Shown: one piece after another, positions 478-12,369 of the stretch
How the letters are laid out: each line of letters begins with the position of its first letter
Numbering within the stretch: position 1 is the stretch's first letter
Source: an uncultured Sphingomonadaceae bacterium
GTDB lineage: Bacteria; Pseudomonadota; Alphaproteobacteria; Sphingomonadales; Sphingomonadaceae
Length of the DNA stretch: 64,000 nucleotides
Direction: 5' to 3'
NCBI GenBank assembly: GCA_947499255.1
Contig: CANMNF010000001.1
Span: 434,001-498,000 of the forward strand
Translations under genes and position numbers: made by a program
Notes under the pieces: model-generated
Seen by the model: the letters and a program-made list of their open reading frames with translations, nothing else
Databases searched by the model: none
What the model was told of the DNA's origin: nothing

Positions 478-2100
478 TCAGACTGGGACGGCAATTGAAA
501 ATCTGGCGAGATGAGAGACTAGCTCTGTCCTGGTGATTGGAACGTCGTATCGCCATTCGAGTAGCGGTACCCCATGGCTCGACAGCAAGGTCCGCTTCTT
601 ATCATCTCGGGCACAAGTGAGCTCAAAGCCTTCCTGTCCACCGAATAGTGCGATCGGCTTGTAGTGTTGCTTTCCTTGGTATTCGATGGCGAGCCCTAGT
701 TCTGGAACATAGATGTCAACGGACTGCATGCCCAGGAAGGCTGGTCGCCACTGATGGACCGCTGATGGCCATATCGAGCGCACAAGGTCGAGAAGTGCGA
801 CCTCAGAGACCCAACCGCGGCCAATCTCCGGGATAGATCGTTCTCTACGAAAGGCGTCTTCTGCAGCGACCATCCAGTTCGCGAAGAACTCGGAGGCCCC
901 TGTGTCCGCAACGCCCAAATTCCAAGAGAAAATTCGACCGCGTTGTCCGCTCGGATTGATGAATTGAGCGATTTGCCGACGGCACGCGGCCCAATCCGAA
1001 GCGGGAGGCATTTGCGGTACCGAAAAGGATTCATAGTCCGGTCGCAGTCTGTTCATTTCTTCGAGAACTGGTGGCTCTAATGCGAACTGTGCGTCAAGAT
1101 GGTCGAGGAAGGCCCCAAACTCTTCGAGCAAACGCCCAGATATGGGTGAACTATCTGCGTGTTTTCGCGCGAGGACGCGGATGTCCTGTGCTTGCAATGG
1201 CGTTTTGGTGAGATATCTCAGATAGATGACCTCGTCGAAAAGCGTTTCTCGTTCTCTGCCAGGAACCGCTTCGACCAGCTCAAGCGCTTCGCGAAGCCGG
1301 TCTGCGTCTGTAAGGTCGAGAACCTGTTGCCAATAGGGGTCTGGATCCCATGTGCCTTCCATTGTGTCCGGCAGATCTTCTGGCAGTCCGGTCCCATCAA
1401 CTCCGCGCCATTGATTACCTAGCAGACGCGCCTGCAAGCCATATCCTCTCGACCTCTCATTATCTTCCCGAATCCTAGCAATCGGCAAGCTCGGGTCGAG
1501 CGGGTTGGCAGTCCAGGATTGGCCTTGCGGGATACCATCTGGGCGCATGACGTAGCCAATGTCGAAGCCCGCGGTCGAAAAATCGCCCAATGCAAGATCG
1601 CCGATCGCTTCGACCAGCCGCTCATAGAGTCGGACTTGATCCTTCCGGACTCCCACAGAGATTAAGGTGCGGCCTCGGCCCGATGTCTGTCTAGCAACGG
1701 CAGGGGCATAATTTGCGAGCGCGACTGCACGTTGTCGCCGAAGGCCCGGGCCTTCGAGAAAATGAATACGGTGAGTTATGTCGTCGGCGAAGTGGGGATA
1801 CGTCAGAGGGACAGGATCGACTTTTTTCGATCGTCGCTTCTTTGGTGGTGGCTCCGGCCCGTATTCGACAAGCAGCTCCTCGCAAAGGCTCGAAAGTTCT
1901 GCGAAATGCAAGGCTGCAACAGAGCCAGCTTCACGCTTTCCCGCAAGAGTAGCGTAGAGCTTCTGCCATCTTGCTAGGTCCTTGCGATACAGTTCGCGAC
2001 TCGCTTTGTTGCGCAACGAGCTTTCGTAGATCTTCGCCGACGTACGAAATTCTTCGAGGCCTGTTTCGCCCTCATTGGGAGGCGGCGGCTTCAGCAACAA
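478..2100 (-). CDS. Large protein with C-terminal PD-(D/E)XK-like nuclease domain
   Basis: 540 residues, no signal peptide or membrane segment. A basic patch (PPPKKRRSKK) lies near residue 90. The last 80 residues resemble the restriction-endonuclease fold: VDIYVPELGLAIEYQGKQH has D462, E473 and Q475 spaced as in Vsr/PD-(D/E)XK enzymes, followed by RDDKKR and a GVPLLEWRYD strand. The first 450 residues match no family I recognise. It is the last gene of a minus-strand operon, 13 bases after the membrane protein gene. The position suggests the effector of a defence system acting on DNA; that is inference. The metal-binding E-x-Q in place of E-x-K is a variant seen in some active enzymes. Confidence 0.65.
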   Translation of the reverse strand: MLLKPPPPNEGETGLEEFRTSAKIYESSLRNKASRELYRKDLARWQKLYATLAGKREAGSVAALHFAELSSLCEELLVEYGPEPPPKKRRSKKVDPVPLTYPHFADDITHRIHFLEGPGLRRQRAVALANYAPAVARQTSGRGRTLISVGVRKDQVRLYERLVEAIGDLALGDFSTAGFDIGYVMRPDGIPQGQSWTANPLDPSLPIARIREDNERSRGYGLQARLLGNQWRGVDGTGLPEDLPDTMEGTWDPDPYWQQVLDLTDADRLREALELVEAVPGRERETLFDEVIYLRYLTKTPLQAQDIRVLARKHADSSPISGRLLEEFGAFLDHLDAQFALEPPVLEEMNRLRPDYESFSVPQMPPASDWAACRRQIAQFINPSGQRGRIFSWNLGVADTGASEFFANWMVAAEDAFRRERSIPEIGRGWVSEVALLDLVRSIWPSAVHQWRPAFLGMQSVDIYVPELGLAIEYQGKQHYKPIALFGGQEGFELTCARDDKKRTLLSSHGVPLLEWRYDVPITRTELVSHLARFSIAVPV

Positions 2101-2113
2101 GCGCTCCTATGAT

Positions 2114-2818
2114 TTAGCTAATTCTCGGCACCGCATGCGCCTTCTCAAAAGCCCTAAACACCTCTCTGGTGTACGCAGCGTAGAACTTGATAAAGCGCAT
2201 GAAGAGACCCAGCGAGAGGATCGCTGCACCGATTGCCAGTATTGCATCAATCCGTTCACCTGTGCGCACCGCAAGGCTCGAGAGGAACAGGGCACCCAAG
2301 AAGCTTGCGAAAGACACGTTCCGGCACAACCCATAAAGGTTCAGGAAGTTGTCCAGCCGATTAGCCGAGTCGGGAAGGGATCGAGCACGCGGGAAAGCGT
2401 ATTGAAATGCAGCTTCAGGCTCGATCTCGCATTCTTGCACACTGAGGGCATCGCGTAGCTTGGTCACGATGACTTTCGAGTAGTCGGGTGAGAATGGTTC
2501 GTATTCGCGCGCGCCCACTGCCGCCCCGAAACAGCGCTCCCGCCAGCGCTGATTTTTCAGCCCAAGGATGACAGAGGACGGATCAAGTAGAACTCGTTTG
2601 GCAAGCCAGTGCTCTATTATGGCAGAGGACGGCATCGCAATAATGTGTCCGATTAGGTATGCAATCGCGGCCCAAAAGACGCCGACTACAATCCCCCAAT
2701 CCATTTCATTCGCTAGGAATGATCCCATGAAGGCGCGGTCAAATGCTGCCAAGACGACCATTCCTGTCGTGAGGTACGCATAGAAGTCGTAGCTCGTTAG
2801 CGGGAACCAGTCCTTCAT
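2114..2818 (-). CDS. Four-helix membrane protein of unknown function
   Basis: 234 residues with likely membrane segments at about 11-30, 40-62, 168-184 and 191-211. A soluble stretch of some 100 residues between the second and third helices is rich in charged and aromatic residues. I do not recognise the family. Its ATG overlaps the stop codon of the upstream MBL hydrolase gene (ATGA at 2815-2818), which indicates translational coupling, and the nuclease gene follows 13 bases later. It could be a membrane anchor or a pore-forming effector; nothing in the sequence decides between these. Confidence 0.6.
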   Translation of the reverse strand: MKDWFPLTSYDFYAYLTTGMVVLAAFDRAFMGSFLANEMDWGIVVGVFWAAIAYLIGHIIAMPSSAIIEHWLAKRVLLDPSSVILGLKNQRWRERCFGAAVGAREYEPFSPDYSKVIVTKLRDALSVQECEIEPEAAFQYAFPRARSLPDSANRLDNFLNLYGLCRNVSFASFLGALFLSSLAVRTGERIDAILAIGAAILSLGLFMRFIKFYAAYTREVFRAFEKAHAVPRIS

Positions 2819-3711
2819 AGTGTGTACTCGGTTTCGACAGTGAAGCTTCCGACATAGCCATCAAACTTCGATTGCTCCTCATCGGTTAGCTTCTTGTGGG
2901 AATAGCCTTCCTTTGAGGCGTAGACGTGAACCTTCTCGTCGATGATGTCGAAGGTCAGGTCACCCGCTTTGTGCTGGGTAAAAACGTTGTAGCCAGTGTA
3001 ATAGTCAAGGTGGCGAGATGGGGCCTCGCCGATGATGATGAATTGCGGGTCCAGCTTCTCAAGCCAGCTATTCGGAATCTTTCCCGACTTACGCCCGTGA
3101 TGCGCTGCAATCACGACCGTCGTTTTATTCAAATTAATCGCATCTTCTATGTTCTCCATAAACTCTGTCTCGAGGTCACCGAGCCAGAGGAAGCTGGCGC
3201 CGCCCTTGAGGCTGTAACGAACCACTGCCGAGGTGTTGTTAAAGCTTTCGCCAGCATTGCAAGCGGCCAATGCCTCCTTGAAGTATTTGTTTTTCGTGTC
3301 CGGCCACAGGATGTTGATACCAGCGGAGCCGCGTCCCTCACCATTCTTGTTCATCCACCTGCGGCTGCAGCCTTTGTGGATGTAGAAGGCTTTGTCGCTA
3401 TCGCGAAGCTTACAGTAACGCTTGAAGGACTCCGTTTCCTCGTCCTTGATTGCTTTGTTCTTCACGCAATAGAAATTGACAATCGACTTAGCATCATCGA
3501 GCCGTTCGATCCCCCCAAAGTGGTCTTGATCGGGGTGTGTGCAAATAAACCTGGTGATCCCTTTTTCCGCCGATTCCGTCTTCAGTTCGTCTATGATCCG
3601 GTCAGCATTCTCATCGTTGAGATTGCAGTCGATAATAGAAAAGTTGTCGCTGCCATGCCGGATGTAAAACATGTCGCCGTTGCCTACTGAGAAACTCTTG
3701 ATGACAGGCAC
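2815..3711 (-). CDS. ComEC/Rec2-like metallo-beta-lactamase hydrolase (MBL1)
   Basis: 298 residues spanning one MBL fold. The metal-binding motif is THPDQDH (H59, D61, D63, H64), then an NNTSAVVRY strand, LGDLE (D179) and AAHHGRKSG (H204, H205). This set matches the ComEC-C-terminal-like branch of the superfamily, which contains phosphodiesterases and nucleases. There is no membrane part, so it is a stand-alone soluble enzyme. It is the first gene of the minus-strand operon and overlaps the membrane protein gene by four bases. It faces a second MBL gene across a shared promoter region. The substrate cannot be told from sequence. Confidence 0.8.
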   Translation of the reverse strand: MPVIKSFSVGNGDMFYIRHGSDNFSIIDCNLNDENADRIIDELKTESAEKGITRFICTHPDQDHFGGIERLDDAKSIVNFYCVKNKAIKDEETESFKRYCKLRDSDKAFYIHKGCSRRWMNKNGEGRGSAGINILWPDTKNKYFKEALAACNAGESFNNTSAVVRYSLKGGASFLWLGDLETEFMENIEDAINLNKTTVVIAAHHGRKSGKIPNSWLEKLDPQFIIIGEAPSRHLDYYTGYNVFTQHKAGDLTFDIIDEKVHVYASKEGYSHKKLTDEEQSKFDGYVGSFTVETEYTL

Positions 3712-4026: not shown

Positions 4027-5127
4027 ATGGCCAATAATCAGATCACTTTCTTCACTGTCGATAATGGAGACTCGGTTCTTCTCGAGGCACATGGCTGGAC
4101 CATAATGACGGATGTCAATTATCGCGCGGGCGCAGCGGATGAAGATGACGACGATCACCACGATTTTGCGCCCATTCTCCGTGACGCCTGTAACGACGAT
4201 AGCCTAGACATCTTTGTCCTAACGCACCCTGACGAGGACCACCTGAGAGGGTTTGGAAGTATCTTCCACCTTGGCAAACCAGAAGATCGCGACGATGATC
4301 CAGACGAAGGTGACGTCCTGCTCATAGCCAATGAAATCTGGTGCTCAGAGTATGCAGCAAACCCAAATTACACGACCGATGTCTCCAAGCCTGTCCTGAA
4401 CGAAATCAAAAGACGCAAGAACCTTCAGGGGACTCAGGAAGGGAAAAAGGACGGTAATCGGTTGCAGATTTTGACAGCAAGCGGCGGTGCTGAGCAGGAT
4501 ATTGTTAAAGGCCTTTCCTGGCGTCTGCTTGCTCCTGATGCAGATGAAGCCGATATCCCCGTGGCACCCGAAGGCGAGCCTCGAAATAGCTCGAACTCTT
4601 CGAGCCTAGTCATTCAATGGTCAATTACTGTGGGCTCGTCGGCTTCGAAAGTGCTTTTGGGCGGGGATAGCACCGTCGAGGTCTGGGAGCGGATCGACAA
4701 AGATTACGACGCCGCTGCCAAAGAATGGAACATCTTATTGGCCCCTCACCACTGCTCCCGACATTCGATGGGACGCAAGAAAGGTGATGATCAATTCGAA
4801 TGGTCAGATGAAGCTATTGCTGGCCTTGATAACCCAAAAGGCTCCAGCCCTCATGTTGTATCCAGCTCAAAGAAGTTTGAAGGGGGTACGCCGCCGAATC
4901 CCAAAGCGCGGGACAAATACCATAAGATTCTCGCACAGGGCGATGATGTCGACGACGAAGTTCGTTCGAGATTTCTGGTGACGGCCGGGAAGAAGGGTGA
5001 AAAGGCAAAGGACATCGTTTTTACCTTTAAGAGCTCGGGGCCGAGCCTGAAGCTCATCGGCACGGCTACATCAGCTTCTATCATTTCTTCATCGCCCGCC
5101 TCCGCAGGTGGCGGCGGCTATGGCTGA
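4027..5127 (+). CDS. ComEC-like metallo-beta-lactamase hydrolase with Gly-rich C-terminal tail (MBL2)
   Basis: 366 residues from the ATG at 4027; the frame is open from 3943, but the family-like start FFTVDNGDSVLLE lies just after 4027. Metal motifs are THPDEDH (H67, D69, D71, H72), LGGD (D214) and APHHCSRHS (H241, H242). After the fold the chain ends in about 30 residues of low complexity (Ser, Ala, Gly) finishing SPASAGGGGYG. Such a flexible Gly-terminated tail is what E1/E2 enzymes act on. The gene overlaps the E2-E1-JAB gene by eight bases, so the two are translated together. MBL genes beside E2-E1-JAB fusions are known from comparative genomics; the idea that this protein is the conjugated substrate is my inference. 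Confidence 0.8.
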   Translation: MANNQITFFTVDNGDSVLLEAHGWTIMTDVNYRAGAADEDDDDHHDFAPILRDACNDDSLDIFVLTHPDEDHLRGFGSIFHLGKPEDRDDDPDEGDVLLIANEIWCSEYAANPNYTTDVSKPVLNEIKRRKNLQGTQEGKKDGNRLQILTASGGAEQDIVKGLSWRLLAPDADEADIPVAPEGEPRNSSNSSSLVIQWSITVGSSASKVLLGGDSTVEVWERIDKDYDAAAKEWNILLAPHHCSRHSMGRKKGDDQFEWSDEAIAGLDNPKGSSPHVVSSSKKFEGGTPPNPKARDKYHKILAQGDDVDDEVRSRFLVTAGKKGEKAKDIVFTFKSSGPSLKLIGTATSASIISSSPASAGGGGYG

Positions 5128-7423
5128 AGAAGGCGAGCGGTTACCTAGAAACATAGATTGGGAAATTGCCCGTATTCGCAACTTCCCATCGACAGTCGAC
5201 GATAGCGTCGCTTTTGAGATGCGAGACGATGCCGCAACAGTGAAATTTCAGATCCGCACTGACCTGCTGCTGGATGGAGAGAAGGCAGCGCCAATCAATG
5301 AGGTTGAGCCGATCTGCTTCGTATATGGTGCGCCGGATGAAATCGGTAAAAAGGCACCTGTCGCGCTAAGTGACCGCAAAGACTTCCCACGGGCTCTCTC
5401 CCATCTAAATCCCGGTGCCCGCGAACGGCCCGCCAACCTTTGTCTTTCGCGTGCTAGCATCCAAGCCATCTATGATCGGTTCGGGATTGTCGGTGTTCTA
5501 GATCGCCTGTCGAGTTGGCTTAGCGATGCAAAGAGTGGCGTTTTGTATGAGGACGGTTGGGAGCCCGTACCCACACCGACTGCAGAATTAGGTGTCGTGG
5601 GCCTGATCGATCCGAAAAGATTCCAGATGCTCGCGGCGCAAAATCCCTCCGGTGGCTTCAGGTTCATTAGTGCTGGCGTGAGGCACTTGAAGAGCGGCGG
5701 TGTCGGCATCGATGCTGTTGAGCCATTCTTGGATACGGGCGACTTTGAATCCTTACGACGCGCCAAATCTGAAATGTCTCAAATACAGGTAGGCCGGACC
5801 GCCATTCCTGCCATTTTTTGTTGGCCGAACAGCGAGACACAACAGAATGCGCCGCACTTCAATCAATGGACTGAGGTAAGCTCGATCGTGGACGGCCTGA
5901 AGGAAACTGCACTTTGGGATCACGTTGATAAGGCGACTATCATGATGGACGTTCTGTTCAATGAACAGGATGGGAGCGCTAAGCTGGCAGACGTACTCTT
6001 CAAAGAACAAAGACGCGGCATTCTCCTTATCGTCGGACTTTGGCGGCCCAAGCCAATAGACCGTTCAATTGGCGGGTTAGCGGAAGATGATGATCTCGCC
6101 CGATCATTGGAATTGCGCGCCTTCTTTATCAGTCGTCATGCGGAAAAAAGCGACCCTTGGGATGCTTCGGCGCGTGTTGACCCGTTCCTAGCTCTCACAC
6201 CTGCAAACTCCGAGACCTTGAGTGCAGTTTCGGGTGAACCACCACTTGAGGACTTGCTGGTGCTTGGCGCAGGGGCCCTAGGAAGCAACCTAATAGACCA
6301 TGCTGCACGAAGCGGAGTGGGGCGATTACATGTGATCGATGACGATGTTCTCCTTCCGCACAATATCGCAAGGCACATTGGCAGCAGATTGGCGATCGGC
6401 GAAGATAAAGCTGAAGTGTCGGCCCAATATGCTTCGGCAGCAAACTGTGATGCCTCAGTCACGTATGTTCGGAAAGACATTCTATCGCTTTCCGACGAAG
6501 ATCTCGAGCAGCAAATCGAACGTTCGAAAGTTGTGATAGACGCAACTGCCAATGCGCAGGTGCGAGTTAAACTGTCTAAGAACGGGTTGCCGAAGCGTCC
6601 GGTCGTTAGAACCGAAATTTTCAATCAAGGCCTACTTGGGGTTACGCTTGCCACGGAGACTGACAGCGCTGCGTCAACGAACTTCCTTTATCACTGGCTG
6701 GTATCGCAAGCCCCTAGCCATCCTGCTGTGAAGGACTGGATCGCCTACGAAGCGACGAGTGACTTTAGGGATCAGGAGTTGCTGCTGGGTTTTGGATGTC
6801 ACTCGCTGACGACGAAATTGCCAAACTACAAACTGTCTGGCCATGCAGCCGCGGCCTATGCCGCGATAAGGTCACACCAGCTCAGCGCCGACAAACGACC
6901 GTCTGTTTATCTCAATGAGATAGACAATGATGGATTATCACGTGGCGCTTCAGTTTTGCGGCCAGGAGCAGTCGCAGTGTTCGACGACGAGAATGACACC
7001 GACGGATGGCGGGTCATCGTTCCAGAAGACGTCCTCACTCGAATGTATGCTTTACGAGCCGAGAAGGCGCCGAATGAGACAGGCGGCTATCTCTACGGCG
7101 CAATCTGTGAACCTAACTCAGAAATCTACGTGTTGTTCGTTTCTGCCGAGCCGCTAGGAACAGTCGGCAGTCCAGCCCACTTGGCGCTTGGCCCATGCGG
7201 CAGGACAGGTCAGGAAAAAGCATTTCTCCGACGGACAGGACGCTGCTTGCCACCGATCGGCACGTGGCACTCTCACCCCAATGGCGCCCCAACAGCTTCG
7301 TCTAAGGACTGGAAGACTATCGAGGGTTTCCTCGACACAGATTCGACCCACGGCATTCCGACATTCATGCTCATTAGCGGCGCTCAAAGTGATCGCGCCT
7401 ATGTGAAATCTCGTCGAATTTGA
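5120..7423 (+). CDS. E2-E1-JAB triple-fusion ubiquitin-like conjugation protein
   Basis: 767 residues from the ATG at 5120 (the frame also opens with GTG at 5108). Residues 1-155 look like a bacterial E2: LSHLNP, then LCLS with candidate catalytic Cys108, then WLSDAKSG and WEPVP. Residues 375-590 are an E1 adenylation domain with GAGALG (383-388), an acidic IDDD, R418, K430 and D474, and a GFGCHS motif (Cys560) in the place of the E1 thiolation region. Residues 635-767 are a JAB/JAMM peptidase with E653, H717, H719, S727 and D730, the complete E/HSHx7SxxD zinc site. All three activities look intact. No ubiquitin-like gene is adjacent. This layout is related to Cap2/Cap3 of CBASS and to the bacterial E1/E2/JAB operons described by Iyer, Burroughs and Aravind; an antiviral role is inferred. 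Confidence 0.88.
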   Translation: MAEEGERLPRNIDWEIARIRNFPSTVDDSVAFEMRDDAATVKFQIRTDLLLDGEKAAPINEVEPICFVYGAPDEIGKKAPVALSDRKDFPRALSHLNPGARERPANLCLSRASIQAIYDRFGIVGVLDRLSSWLSDAKSGVLYEDGWEPVPTPTAELGVVGLIDPKRFQMLAAQNPSGGFRFISAGVRHLKSGGVGIDAVEPFLDTGDFESLRRAKSEMSQIQVGRTAIPAIFCWPNSETQQNAPHFNQWTEVSSIVDGLKETALWDHVDKATIMMDVLFNEQDGSAKLADVLFKEQRRGILLIVGLWRPKPIDRSIGGLAEDDDLARSLELRAFFISRHAEKSDPWDASARVDPFLALTPANSETLSAVSGEPPLEDLLVLGAGALGSNLIDHAARSGVGRLHVIDDDVLLPHNIARHIGSRLAIGEDKAEVSAQYASAANCDASVTYVRKDILSLSDEDLEQQIERSKVVIDATANAQVRVKLSKNGLPKRPVVRTEIFNQGLLGVTLATETDSAASTNFLYHWLVSQAPSHPAVKDWIAYEATSDFRDQELLLGFGCHSLTTKLPNYKLSGHAAAAYAAIRSHQLSADKRPSVYLNEIDNDGLSRGASVLRPGAVAVFDDENDTDGWRVIVPEDVLTRMYALRAEKAPNETGGYLYGAICEPNSEIYVLFVSAEPLGTVGSPAHLALGPCGRTGQEKAFLRRTGRCLPPIGTWHSHPNGAPTASSKDWKTIEGFLDTDSTHGIPTFMLISGAQSDRAYVKSRRI

Positions 7424-7854: not shown

Positions 7855-9411
7855 TTAAGCTTCTGGCGCTTCCCAACGCAGCCGCGGATTGCGTGCAGCT
7901 CCTGTCTCATCAACCCGTTTGCGCGGCGCGTGATAGGGCGCGTTCCTAAGCGTTTCATCTCCTGCCTTTGCCCGCTGGGCCACAGAGCGGAAGGCAGTGA
8001 TAAATTCGTCTAGGCTTTCCTTGCTCTCTGTCTCTGTTGGCTCAACCAACATCGCGCCATGCACCACTAGCGGGAAATACACCGTCATCGGGTGATACCC
8101 TTCATCGATCAGCCCTTTGGCCAGATCAAGCGTTGCAAGATCGCCGCCAAACCCTTCATCGCTGAACAAGGCTTCGTGCATACAAGGTCCATGCGGGCCG
8201 AATGGCGCGTCGAGCACATCTTCCAAGCTGCGCAGGATGTAATTCGCGCTAAGCACCGCATCGCCAGACACCTGGCGCAGGCCATCGGCGCCATGGCTGA
8301 GGATATAGGCCAGCGCGCGGGTGAACATGCCCATCTGGCCGTGAAACGCAGTCATCCGGCCAAAGCTTTCCGGCGCGCTTTGAGCAGCGCTTTCCTCTTC
8401 GATCAGGACGAATTTTTCATCACGCTTTTCCACCGTGGGAAGCGGGGCGAAAGGCGCCAAAGAATGCGAAAAGACAGTCGGGCCAGATCCGGGGCCGCCG
8501 CCGCCATGCGGGGTGGAAAAGGTTTTGTGCAGATTGATATGCATCGCATCAACGCCCAGATCACCGGGGCGCACGCGGCCCACAATCGCGTTGAAATTCG
8601 CCCCGTCGCAATAGACATATCCGCCCGCATCATGGACCGCATCGGCGATCTTTTTGAAATCGCGTTCGAACAGGCCGCACGTGTTGGGATTGGTGATCAT
8701 CACGCCGGCCACATGCGGGCCAAGCCGTTCGATCACCGCCTCAACGTCGATCTTGCCATCATCGGCTGCGGGGATGCCTTCAACCTTGTAACCGCAAAAG
8801 GCGGCTGTGGCCGGATTCGTGCCATGCGCGCTTTCGGGTACCAGCACCACTTCGCGCACGTCGCCATCGGCTTCCAGCTTGTGCCGGATCGCCAACAGGC
8901 CGCACAGCTCGCCATGCGCGCCAGCCTTGGGGCTCATCGCGATACCAGGCATTCCAGTGAGTGTCTTGAGCCAGTCCGCCAGCTCATGGATGACTGCCAG
9001 CGCGCCTTGGATCGCCGGGATCGGGGCGAGGGGGTGCAGATCGGCAAACCCGGGCAGGCGCGCCACCTTCTCATTCAAACGCGGATTGTGCTTCATGGTG
9101 CAACTGCCCAGCGGGAAGAGGCCCAGATCAATCGCGTAATTCTGGCGACTTAGCCGTGTGTAATGGCGCACGGTTTCCGGTTCTGTGAGGCCGGGAAGGC
9201 CAAAGCTTTGCGTCCGCTCCAACCCATCAAGGTGATTGGGCGCAGAGGTATCGGGCGCGGGCAGATCAACGCCGGTGCGCTCTCCTCCACCCGCTTCGAA
9301 GATGAGCTTTTCTTCGAGCATAAGCGCACGATTGCCCGTCGATGTTTTGGGGGTGAAGGTCATCTCGCTTGCGTTCCCATCTTCGCCTGTCGCTTGGTCT
9401 GCGGGCCTCAT
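7855..9411 (-). CDS. gcvPB: Glycine dehydrogenase (decarboxylating) subunit 2
   Basis: 518 residues. This is the PLP-carrying subunit of the P protein of the glycine cleavage system, which decarboxylates glycine and loads the aminomethyl group onto lipoyl-GcvH. The PLP lysine is K296 in HINLHKTFSTPHGGGG. Subunit 2 also shows FPLGSCTMKHNP near residue 100. The start codon overlaps the stop of gcvPA (ATGA at 9408-9411), so the first ATG is preferred although the conserved part begins about 30 residues later. It is the last gene of the gcvT-H-PA-PB operon. Confidence 0.97.
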   Translation of the reverse strand: MRPADQATGEDGNASEMTFTPKTSTGNRALMLEEKLIFEAGGGERTGVDLPAPDTSAPNHLDGLERTQSFGLPGLTEPETVRHYTRLSRQNYAIDLGLFPLGSCTMKHNPRLNEKVARLPGFADLHPLAPIPAIQGALAVIHELADWLKTLTGMPGIAMSPKAGAHGELCGLLAIRHKLEADGDVREVVLVPESAHGTNPATAAFCGYKVEGIPAADDGKIDVEAVIERLGPHVAGVMITNPNTCGLFERDFKKIADAVHDAGGYVYCDGANFNAIVGRVRPGDLGVDAMHINLHKTFSTPHGGGGPGSGPTVFSHSLAPFAPLPTVEKRDEKFVLIEEESAAQSAPESFGRMTAFHGQMGMFTRALAYILSHGADGLRQVSGDAVLSANYILRSLEDVLDAPFGPHGPCMHEALFSDEGFGGDLATLDLAKGLIDEGYHPMTVYFPLVVHGAMLVEPTETESKESLDEFITAFRSVAQRAKAGDETLRNAPYHAPRKRVDETGAARNPRLRWEAPEA

Positions 9412-10769
9412 GCCAAGTCCTCCTCAAGCGCGCGGGCGAGGTCTTCGATATCCTCATCGGTCGCGGTTTCGGTGACATTGACCAGCAGGCCATTGGCCAG
9501 CCCCGGCTCATCAGGATAAAGCCGCCCGAGCGAGACGCCCGCCAGCATATCCTTCTCATCGGCCAATCGCCGCACAAGGCTGCGCGCATCGCCATCAAGC
9601 AGCAGAGTGAACTCGTTGAAAAAGCTATCGTTGAGCAGCGTCACGCCAGGCACTTTTGCAAGCCTGTCCGCGGCCTTGGCGGCGAGCCGATGGTTTTCCG
9701 CTGCCAGCGCGCGCAGGCCCGTTTCGCCAAGCAGCGTCATATGGACAGAGAAGGCGAGGGCGCACAGCCCGCTATTGGTGCAGATATTGGACGTCGCCTT
9801 TTCACGGCGAATATGCTGTTCACGCGTGGCGAGGGTGAGGACGTAAGAGCGCTTGCCATCAGCATCCTCGGTTTCCCCGCAAAGACGCCCCGGCATTTGC
9901 CGCACGAACTTTTTGCGGGTGGCGAACAGGCCCAGATACGGCCCGCCAAATTGCAGTCCCACGCCCAGCGATTGCCCTTCGCCCACAACGATATCCGCGC
10001 CCATTTCGCCCGGGCTTTTGACAGCACCCAAAGCGACAGGTTCCGTTACCACCGCGATCAACAATGCGCCCATTTCATGCGCGGCTTCCGCGATGACGGA
10101 CAAGTCAGACAGCCGCCCAAGAATGTCTGGATATTGCACCACCACACACGATGTCTGATCATCAATGCGGCCCACCAGACCTTCAATATCAGGTGCGCCC
10201 TGCAGGCTGGGTGAGGCATCTGCGATCACATCATCGGTGACCCGCGCCATCGTCTTGACCACTTGCGTATAATGGGGATGCAATGCACCCGATATCACTG
10301 CGCGTTTCTTGCGCGTAATCCGGCCCGCCATTGCGACCGCTTCCCAGCAGGCGGTGGAGCCATCATACATCGAGGCATTGGCCACATCACAGCCATAAAG
10401 CTTGGCCACTTGCGTTTGAAATTCGAACAAGACCTGCAAAGTTCCCTGCGCGATTTCTGGCTGATATGGCGTGTACGATGTGAGGAATTCGCCGCGCTGG
10501 ATAATGTGATCCACGCTGGCGGGAATATGGTGGCGATATGCGCCTGCGCCCAGAAAGAACGGGCGATGTGTCGCGGGCATGTTCTGCTCTGCCAGTTTCA
10601 CCATGTGGCGTTCCACCGCCATCTCACTGGCATGCATAGGCAGGCCATGAATGGGGCCGTCGAGCCGCGCCTCTTCAGGCACATCGACGAACAGATCATC
10701 AATAGACGGCGCGCCCACAGTTTGGAGCATCGTTTCGCGGCATTGATCGGTCAGGGGCAGGTAGCGCAT
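9408..10769 (-). CDS. gcvPA: Glycine dehydrogenase (decarboxylating) subunit 1
   Basis: 453 residues, matching the N-terminal half of the P protein. It starts MRYLPLTDQCRETML and has the family stretch RHHIPASVDHIIQRGEFLTS and the YTPYQPEIAQGTLQ segment. It forms a heterotetramer with GcvPB. Two-gene P proteins are usual in many alphaproteobacteria and Gram-positives, in place of the single GcvP of enterics. It lies 38 bases downstream of gcvH and overlaps gcvPB by four bases. Confidence 0.97.
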   Translation of the reverse strand: MRYLPLTDQCRETMLQTVGAPSIDDLFVDVPEEARLDGPIHGLPMHASEMAVERHMVKLAEQNMPATHRPFFLGAGAYRHHIPASVDHIIQRGEFLTSYTPYQPEIAQGTLQVLFEFQTQVAKLYGCDVANASMYDGSTACWEAVAMAGRITRKKRAVISGALHPHYTQVVKTMARVTDDVIADASPSLQGAPDIEGLVGRIDDQTSCVVVQYPDILGRLSDLSVIAEAAHEMGALLIAVVTEPVALGAVKSPGEMGADIVVGEGQSLGVGLQFGGPYLGLFATRKKFVRQMPGRLCGETEDADGKRSYVLTLATREQHIRREKATSNICTNSGLCALAFSVHMTLLGETGLRALAAENHRLAAKAADRLAKVPGVTLLNDSFFNEFTLLLDGDARSLVRRLADEKDMLAGVSLGRLYPDEPGLANGLLVNVTETATDEDIEDLARALEEDLA

Positions 10770-10807
10770 CGGTTCAACCTTTCGTCAGCATGACGATTGC
10801 GGTGGGG

Positions 10808-11179
10808 TTATTGGCTGTCGCAAAATGCCTTGTAAGCCTTGGCATTCATCAAGCCTTCCAGCTCTTGTGTGTCGGACAAGGTCATGCGGAAGAACCAGCC
10901 TTCTTCTTCGGCGGAGGAATTGACGAGCGCGGGATCATCCACCAGCGCTTCATTCCCCTCGGTCACGCTGCCGCTGACAGGGGCATAAATATCGCTTGCT
11001 GCTTTCACGCTTTCGACCACGGCGGCTTCGGCTCCTTTAACAAGCTCCGCGCCGCTTTCGGGCACTTCGACAAACACCACATCGCCAAGCTGGCCTTGCG
11101 CGAAATCGGTGATGCCAACGGTGGCCGTATCGCCTTCGATGGCGATCCATTCGTGTTCTTCTGTGTAATATGTAGGCAC
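10808..11179 (-). CDS. gcvH: Glycine cleavage system H protein
   Basis: 123 residues, the normal family length. It is the lipoyl carrier that shuttles the aminomethyl group between the P, T and L proteins. The lipoylated lysine is K59 in [16 protein letters not shown]. The gene begins three bases after the gcvT stop, so the two are surely co-transcribed and translationally linked. Confidence 0.98.
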
Positions 11180-11182
11180 GTC

Positions 11183-12313
11183 TTATTTTCCCCGGAAATA
11201 GCGGTGTGGGACAATGGGCATTTTGGTCACGCGGGCAGGCAAACGCTTGCCGCGAACTTCAATCTCTAAGGCTGTGTCGATGGCGGTATGGGCGGCATCG
11301 ACATATGCCATGGCGATTGGATAGCCGAGCGTTGGCGAGTGACCGCCGCTGGTGAGCTGGCCGACCGCTGTGTCACCTGCAAACACTTGCGCTCCTTCGC
11401 GGGCAGGTTGGCGGCCTTCAAGGGTCAAGCCGATGCGTTTTTGCGCAGGGCCATGGGACAAGACTTTGGCGACAGCTTCGTGTCCCATCCATCCGCCCCT
11501 TTCCCGCCGCGCTTTGGATAGGGCGAAAGTGAGGCCAGCGCTGACAGGATCGGTGCTTTGGCTAAGGTCATGGCCATAAAGCGGCAGGCCCGCTTCAAGC
11601 CGCAGCGAATCGCGCGCACCAAGGCCAGCGGGACGCACACGCTCATCTTCAAGGATAGCATTGGCAAATCGCTCTACTGCATCTGTGTGCAGGGACAATT
11701 CGAACCCATCCTCGCCAGTATAGCCTGAACGGCTGACGCCTAACGTGGTGCTGTCCCAATCAAACGTCGCGGCGGTCATAAAGGTGAGTGCGCTTGTTCC
11801 CGGCACAATCCGCTCCAACACCCGCGCCGCCTCTGGTCCTTGAAGGGCAAGAAGCGCTTGATCGGCATGGTGGTTAAGCGTGATTTCATCGGGCAGAAAT
11901 TCGCGAAGATGCGCGATATCGTCCCATTTCATCGCCCCGTTCACCACCAGTGCAAAATGATCGCCCGCATGGGTCACGATCAGATCATCCAGAATGCCGC
12001 CATCTGCATTCAACAACAGGGAATACCGCATACGCCCTGCGGAAAGTTCGGAAAAATCACCCGGCATCAAAGCTTCCAGCGCCTTGACCGCGCCTTCGCC
12101 CGATACGGTGAGCTGTCCCATATGGCTCACATCAAACAGGCCCGCCGCAGTGCGCGTCCAATTGTGTTCAGCCACAATTCCATCATACTGGATCGGCATT
12201 TCATAACCGGCAAACGGCACCATGCGCGCGCCTTTGGCCCGGTGCCACACATCCAGCGGCAGCAAGGCGGGTGCCTCCACTTCGATTTCTGTTTCGGTTT
12301 CAGTATCGCTCAA
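11183..12313 (-). CDS. gcvT: Glycine cleavage system T protein (aminomethyltransferase)
   Basis: 376 residues if translation begins at the TTG at 12311-12313; the frame stays open to a GTG at 12364. The family domain begins at LPLDVWHRAKGARMVPFAGYEMP. I prefer the TTG because GGGAG stands about ten bases before it and the longer version would run into the riboswitch's 3' stem. There is no in-frame ATG before the conserved domain. The enzyme transfers the methylene group from H-protein-bound aminomethyl to tetrahydrofolate and releases ammonia. First gene of the gcv operon, under the tandem glycine riboswitch. Confidence 0.93.
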   Translation of the reverse strand: MSDTETETEIEVEAPALLPLDVWHRAKGARMVPFAGYEMPIQYDGIVAEHNWTRTAAGLFDVSHMGQLTVSGEGAVKALEALMPGDFSELSAGRMRYSLLLNADGGILDDLIVTHAGDHFALVVNGAMKWDDIAHLREFLPDEITLNHHADQALLALQGPEAARVLERIVPGTSALTFMTAATFDWDSTTLGVSRSGYTGEDGFELSLHTDAVERFANAILEDERVRPAGLGARDSLRLEAGLPLYGHDLSQSTDPVSAGLTFALSKARRERGGWMGHEAVAKVLSHGPAQKRIGLTLEGRQPAREGAQVFAGDTAVGQLTSGGHSPTLGYPIAMAYVDAAHTAIDTALEIEVRGKRLPARVTKMPIVPHRYFRGK

Positions 12314-12369
12314 AACACACGGCTCCCGATGGGGCAGGGCTTCGCCATGAAGCGCCTTGTCCACACCCC

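Follow-up and report, generated by a model that had tools for sequence, protein, structure and literature searches.

The stretch of DNA analysed here (64,000 nucleotides, below called the window; contig CANMNF010000001.1, positions 434,001 to 498,000, of an uncultured Sphingomonadaceae bacterium) contains a defence-type operon of two genes, the first encoding a protein of metallo-beta-lactamase (MBL) fold and the second a triple-module protein in which E2, E1 and JAB domains are joined (Table 1). The second gene has an alternative start, GTG 5108, in the mechanical list of open reading frames (ORFs), which would give 771 amino acids (aa). The C-terminal sequence of the MBL is SSSPASAGGGGYG, with SPASAGGGGYG as its last residues. 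The original prediction, made from the letters of this DNA, was that the MBL stands in for the CD-NTase (cGAS/DncV-like nucleotidyltransferase) of a type II CBASS (cyclic oligonucleotide-based antiphage signalling system) and is itself tethered to targets by this tail. The tail and the eight-base overlap with the E2-E1-JAB gene that it described are exact to the base, and Cys108, GAGALG, Cys560, E653, H717, H719, S727 and D730 all lie where it had placed them. The window operon is a member of operon type 6a of Iyer et al. (2006), which the accessible part of PMC1779556 describes as a triple-module E2-E1-JAB protein beside a specialised metallo-beta-lactamase; the MBL is not named there as the conjugated protein and its tail is unmentioned. 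The kind of operon is thus already known, and what is new here is the MBL as a putative substrate, its Gly or Ala end, the extension beyond that end and the likeness of its tail to those of CD-NTases. No statement that the MBL is conjugated, or that its tail is conserved, was found in the open literature searched (the accessible parts of PMC9122588, PMC11354881 and PMC11153139), and since key papers lie outside that search an earlier report is possible.

Relatives were gathered as follows: tblastn against 72,556 plasmids (E 1e-5) gave 225 records for the MBL and 380 for the E2-E1-JAB protein, a scan of genome contigs with a 13-row MBL alignment gave 373 relatives, of which the best 80 were used, and a scan of viral contigs with the MBL alignment gave 9. 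The 103 loci examined are these 80 genome and 9 viral loci, 12 plasmid loci, the genome locus L002 and the window (L001). Ninety-eight MBLs adjoin an E1-bearing ORF; at 60% identity they fall into 36 clusters. Among 398 evenly sampled Pseudomonadota genomes, eight have the MBL, the window's genome included; all seven full-length MBLs of that sample have an adjacent E1 ORF and a Gly among their last seven residues, and the eighth is a fragment.

A Pfam search of the MBL gave nothing up to E 0.1, so its family assignment is based on a profile match to ComEC and on the predicted fold. The AlphaFold2 (AF2) model has a pLDDT of 90.6 overall (mostly above 90 in the core), its best fold match in the PDB is the ComEC beta-lactamase-like domain 9ic4 (E 1.8e-13), and the best sequence-profile match among solved structures is likewise a ComEC beta-lactamase-like domain. 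Alignments of the family have 19 invariant columns in 59 rows and 24 in 48 rows; in the 59 rows H67, D71, H72, H241 and H242 are invariant and D69 and D214 nearly so. The window MBL therefore has both the ComEC-type fold and the HxDxDH metal motif, which we take to be carried by ComEC as well. That string was not found in the accessible part of the ComEC paper (PMC12455585). The same source describes ComEC beta-lactamase-like domains as Mn-dependent nucleases, and because these are its closest solved relatives the window MBL is probably a metal-dependent nuclease or phosphoesterase of ComEC type. It shares the core fold and sequence of the ComEC domain and differs in being free-standing, longer and equipped with a tail.

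The E2-E1-JAB protein matches the Pfam models Prok-E2_A, ThiF and Prok-JAB, each above cut-off, and its AF2 model has a pLDDT of 89.6. The residues checked (the five of the JAMM site, His95, Cys108, Gly383, Gly385, Gly388 and Cys560) do not vary among the 90 of 98 E1 rows that are 650 aa or more in length, the window's own included, apart from two positions masked in one row; the eight rows left out are three ORFs cut by contig ends, one interrupted ORF and four split enzymes. A profile search of solved structures placed Cap2 first (E 1e-25). With the predicted structure, Foldseek gave 7to3 (Cap2-CdnD02) as the best match (E 4.3e-28) and also matched 7tqd (Cap2-CdnD02) and 7tsx and 7tsq (Cap2 bound to the CdnD02 C-terminus), with the Bub E1 9eav at 1.4e-11 and Bub and eukaryotic E1s in general far behind Cap2.

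Table 1. Features of the MBL and E2-E1-JAB operon and of its upstream neighbours (positions in the window)
Feature	Positions	Strand	Remarks
MBL-fold hydrolase, 366 aa, proposed conjugated protein	4027..5127	+	ATG 4027 to stop
Metal-site motif H67-P-D69-E-D71-H72	4225..4242	+	Further conserved: D214, H241-H242
Disordered C-terminal tail of the MBL, residues 346-366, ending in conserved Tyr-Gly	5062..5124	+	pLDDT under 50
8-nt overlap of the MBL and E2-E1-JAB genes	5120..5127	+	Start codon of the second gene within the Tyr-Gly-stop codons (TATGGC)
E2-E1-JAB triple-module protein, 767 aa	5120..7423	+	ATG 5120; Pfam Prok-E2_A, ThiF, Prok-JAB
E2 catalytic Cys108 (with His95)	5441..5443	+	Identical in 90/90 rows
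E1 nucleotide-binding GAGALG, residues 383-388	6266..6283	+	Three Gly identical in 90/90 rows
E1 catalytic Cys560 (candidate)	6797..6799	+	Identical in 90/90 rows
JAMM metal site Glu653, His717, His719, Ser727, Asp730	7076..7309	+	90/90 rows; Ser and Asp masked in one
Second MBL, PADLOC PDC-M48B, no Gly tail	2815..3711	-	E 1.9e-145
Membrane protein, weakly PDC-M48A-like	2114..2818	-	E 0.00018

Is the MBL tail conserved in the family? The sequence [HYA]G occurs within the last 10 residues in 34 of the 36 MBL clusters and, among 608 other genes from these loci, in 39, and an exact terminal G in 20 of 36 and 40 of 608, respectively, so the terminal Gly on which the original prediction could have failed is conserved among orthologues. 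One of the 34 (L008, which ends TVVTQG) is counted only by virtue of an internal AG, and the two clusters that lack the motif are L035 (ends NGGDGYA) and L100 (ends VGFGD). Gly366 is conserved in more than 90% of the 59-row alignment and is not listed as conserved in the 48-row alignment, where the ragged tails align otherwise. The poly-Gly run was rejected as a conserved feature, being typical of the window's own clade; the conserved element is a Gly at or near the end preceded by H, Y or A, with a Pro at -4 from the anchor Gly in 17 of 36 cluster representatives. The anchor was defined as a Gly preceded by H, Y, A, Q or F, or as a terminal YA, which means that the 35 Gly and one Ala among the representatives follow by construction; the same anchor set the end types and extensions for the tree below and the start-codon comparison, and the count of 34 of 36 was made without it. 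In a tree of the MBL core (67 rows, last 45 residues removed, quick search; L018 is labelled split there solely because its contig ends) the end types are HG 24, YG 24, AG 13, YA 4, QG 1 and FG 1. A short extension of unconserved sequence follows the end motif in 28 of the 67 rows and has changed at least 14 times on the tree. (The 20 clusters with an exact Gly end and the 17 without extension differ because different members represented the clusters.) A fixed Gly with a disposable extension is, by analogy, the signature of a ubiquitin-like precursor matured by a peptidase, and the JAB domain would be the obvious candidate for trimming the extension.

MBLs without an E1 neighbour could serve as a control, and nearly none were found. 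Twenty-three matches of the MBL profile do not adjoin E1: three are full-length (L093, L059 and L068), two are fragments, and the remaining 18 are second MBLs that score low (28 bits or less), with a terminal G in one of them, L103 (PERNG). L059 and L068, from short or cut sequence, have Gly or Ala ends of the family's kind, and L093 ends SGNWCKS (n = 1, not informative). In L093 (5989-9208) the family MBL is followed by a 217-aa protein that by eye resembles an E2-only domain, with a SEC-C motif, and then by a patatin-like ORF, with neither E1 nor JAB present; the locus is possibly an MBL equivalent of type II-short CBASS. In L100 (1-4615) and L115, E1 ORFs of low score (1137 aa in L100) adjoin distant MBLs whose last residues are VGFGD or VGYGD, and these MBLs are a further divergent branch.

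According to the accessible part of PMC10097602, the Cap2 of type II CBASS conjugates the cGAS-like enzyme through its C-terminal Gly or Ala, conjugation needs that residue, and the residue is conserved only in operons that also have Cap2 and Cap3. The window operon resembles that system in its E1-E2 of Cap2 fold, its JAB with an intact, though fused, site, its partner protein with a conserved C-terminal Gly/Ala, and the lack of a ubiquitin-like gene. It differs in having an MBL in the place of the CD-NTase, a JAB fused to E2-E1, and an [HYA]G end that often carries a short extension; its E2 model is Prok-E2_A, whereas the CBASS enzymes tested had Prok-E2_B (5/6 and 2/2) or no E2 model. The operon has no CD-NTase, and the window's genome gave no SMODS match (in a search whose control responds in 3 of 14) and no match to a DncV-like protein (in a search made without a positive control).

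The strongest evidence for the MBL as the conjugated protein comes, we believe, from an apparent exchange of partners. Five loci (L035, L038, L040, L061 and the plasmid locus L108) have, beside a family MBL, an E1-E2 enzyme of about 600 aa with Prok-E2_B and a separate JAB. The MBLs of the first four nest inside the fused HG MBLs (SH-aLRT 96 and 100; L108 is not in the tree), and the five split E1-E2 enzymes group with CBASS Cap2s, apart from 14 fused enzymes (support 100). The latter is a quick tree without bootstrap that used 14 of the 40 fused enzymes and omits L111, L112, L114 and L115 (fused or distant, cut by locus ends), L124 and L126 (short E1 ORFs) and L131 (no readable partner). An MBL inside the fused group with an E1-E2 among CBASS Cap2s means that an MBL changed its conjugation enzyme. 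The tails of this MBL sub-group are VNRxGGDGYA and VNKQGGGRYA, versus xHG in their fused relatives. Genes upstream of related Prok-E2_B enzymes, in chosen plasmid matches and the 398 genomes, include CD-NTases with the tails VDRRGGDRYG (L127), VNKQGGGRYG (L130), VSSAGGGRHA (L118, L119, L123 and L128) and VEKREGGRYA plus five residues (L117 and L129); L117, L118, L127 and L130 are CD-NTases by Pfam, L119 and L123 by annotation, and L128 and L129 by a crude motif and near-identical tails only. The four split MBL tails share 5-6 of 10 residues with those of L127 and L130, and the L059 MBL tail shares 5 and 9 of 10; none of 588 controls scored as high. With the GGGRHA and GGRYA tails (L117, L118, L123 and L128) the MBL tails share 4-7 of 10 residues, a level that 0 or 1 of the 588 controls attained. 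Such tails also stand upstream of the four Cap2s of the 398-genome sample that most resemble the one of L035. As MBL and CD-NTase share no fold, the like tails reflect the related conjugation enzymes, whether convergence or recombination upstream of the tail gave rise to them. It is the conjugating enzyme, and not the bearer, that the tail follows.

From the intact active sites, the conserved tail, the closeness to Cap2 and the tail likeness to CD-NTases with related Cap2s, all features of the sequences themselves, it is quite probable that the operon encodes a conjugation system like that of type II CBASS, with an MBL hydrolase, and not a CD-NTase or a ubiquitin-like protein, as the conjugated protein. 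The proposal that the MBL replaces the CD-NTase as the conjugated protein accordingly fares well, chiefly by the exchange of tails just described. We infer the conjugation, its target, the reaction of the MBL and a role in defence as follows: the E1 domain would adenylate the C-terminal Gly of the MBL, which would be passed via Cys560 to Cys108 of the E2 and bound finally to an amine on a target, from which the JAB domain would take it off. In relatives with an extension past the Gly, JAB would trim the tail first. Conjugation would prime or position the MBL, and in about half of the relatives the effector would be the next-encoded membrane protein or patatin phospholipase.

Several observations weigh against this reading. 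The joint group of split enzymes and look-alike CBASS Cap2s is moderately supported (84, in the quick tree); L059, the best tail match, lies on a 3-kb contig that ends before a readable E1; and the split MBL of plasmid locus L108 (QPAYA) retains YA only. Seven tails (those of CBASS in L120, L121, L122 and L125, and those of L132, L133 and L134) end in G or A and are unlike MBL tails; these are upstream of more distant E2-E1 enzymes, and in the lower-ranking L132, L133 and L134 the upstream ORFs end TGRLG, KDTLA and TGNNA (in L131 no partner can be read). In the window operon the plus strand carries no third gene. Finally, 20 of the 36 clusters have at least one member with an E1-frame start codon inside the last xG codons, and such an overlapping codon could help to keep the Y or H.

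The alternative that survives best is that the tail is a docking or processing signal only, so that the MBL would bind E1 or undergo trimming by JAB while the conjugated protein is a different one. A tail that tracks E1 fits docking as well as activation, and conservation by itself is no proof of chemistry. Conservation here concerns, however, a C-terminal Gly or Ala that is last or nearly last, as in E1 substrates; related Cap2s conjugate CD-NTases through that residue (accessible part of PMC10097602); and no ubiquitin-like gene was found among 40 third genes (below). We regard this alternative as improbable.

Much less credible is the idea that translational coupling produces the [HY]G end as a side effect, TATGG or CATGG holding the start codon of the next gene. 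In 39 of 98 rows, the window among them, the last xG codons do contain such an E1-frame codon, but in 16 of the 36 clusters no member has one and xG is nevertheless present, L016, L029 and L030 use TAC for the Y of YG and have no overlap (their starts were picked by script), and the AG ends (24 rows) are unable to contain ATG. This mostly excludes the overlapping start codon as an explanation of the YG end; in some of the family coupling may favour Y or H, but it does not account for the Gly.

Bil and Bub systems, which share the bacterial E1, E2 and JAB logic, conjugate a ubiquitin-like protein. They have a gene for that protein (for Bil, its conjugation is described in the accessible part of PMC11354881), whereas the window operon consists of two genes, neither of them such a gene. 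That the operon conjugates a ubiquitin-like protein encoded elsewhere, as the match to the Bub E1 might suggest, is equally hard to credit, as Cap2 matches far better, no ubiquitin-like family was matched by Pfam in 40 third-gene proteins (chosen by position from 68 candidates), and neither Multi_ubiq nor Prok_Ub had a match in the window's genome (searched without a positive control). The absence of a ubiquitin-like gene from the operon, also part of the original prediction, is borne out in that none recurs among these third genes of its relatives.

Third genes were sought in the 93 loci with 700 nt or more after E1. In 51 of them a close gene on the same strand encodes at least two hydrophobic segments (46 loci) or a patatin motif (five loci), on a crude scale; in 29 loci none was found or none was close, and the other 13 are of other kinds, including separate JABs and spurious frames. 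Among the 40 third-gene proteins Pfam found patatin in five and MBL in one. Of the relatives with room for a third gene, about half thus have a likely effector in that place. WYL regulators are annotated upstream in five of 14 plasmid loci with the MBL (L008, L010, L011, L014 and L107) and an HTH and ImmA pair in one (L012). Both kinds of regulator likewise stand upstream in type II CBASS, which some relatives thus resemble in these regulators and in their patatin or membrane third genes. In L015, L016 and L020, whose operons are closely related to that of the window, a membrane protein of about 206-230 aa (...DPY[DE]Y...PG...) lies tail-to-tail past E2-E1-JAB; a similar one is downstream on the same strand in L002, and there is none at that place in the window.

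The two divergent genes upstream of the window operon (2114..2818 and 2815..3711) recall the PADLOC system PDC-M48, which consists of an M48A membrane protein and an M48B MBL and whose genes recur beside or inside these operons; M48B has no Gly tail and belongs to another MBL subfamily than the operon MBL. A second MBL is near the operon in 25 of 98 loci, on either strand and with many near-copies (counted without matches to the main MBL, fragments and matches lacking an operon). A homologue of the 2114..2818 protein is present in L007, convergent to the operon (E 1.1e-54), and does not itself match M48A; in L017, L036, L037 and L041 the third gene encodes a clear M48A protein. The second MBL of the window is possibly an accessory and the weakly M48A-like membrane protein possibly an effector. 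Window positions 478-2100 encode a 540-aa protein without Pfam or PADLOC match, the C-terminus of which resembles by eye a small PD-(D/E)XK or Vsr-type nuclease.

The MBL is absent from all 20 relatives of the window's genome searched (E 1e-8), so the locus is accessory. Positions 3749-12093 of L135, about 3.9 to 12.3 kb to the left of the MBL start, hold TraH, TraG, a GntR-type regulator and an AbiE toxin-antitoxin pair, and glycine-cleavage genes lie to the right of the operon at window positions 7855-12364. With transfer genes on the left and glycine-cleavage genes on the right, the operon has the appearance of cargo carried at the end of an integrated conjugative element.

The present analysis gives a comparative answer to the question of which protein is conjugated by the 6a operons, known since 2006. 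It also suggests that cGAS-like enzymes are not alone in undergoing ubiquitin-like conjugation without ubiquitin. A broader view, to which we give an even chance, is that E1-E2 machines of the Cap2 type are readers of tails and not CD-NTase enzymes as such, and that any enzyme gaining the right C-terminal tail of 6-12 residues becomes a covalently deployed immune weapon. MBL hydrolases and CD-NTases would then have exchanged machines, the tail moving with the machine or evolving to match it, and an attached MBL may attack nucleic acid or another phosphoester at its target without a second messenger, with JAB maturing and releasing it. Like tails on two unrelated folds predict a portable tag of some 10-20 residues, and the tail rule could help to spot further substrates of bacterial E1-E2 enzymes.

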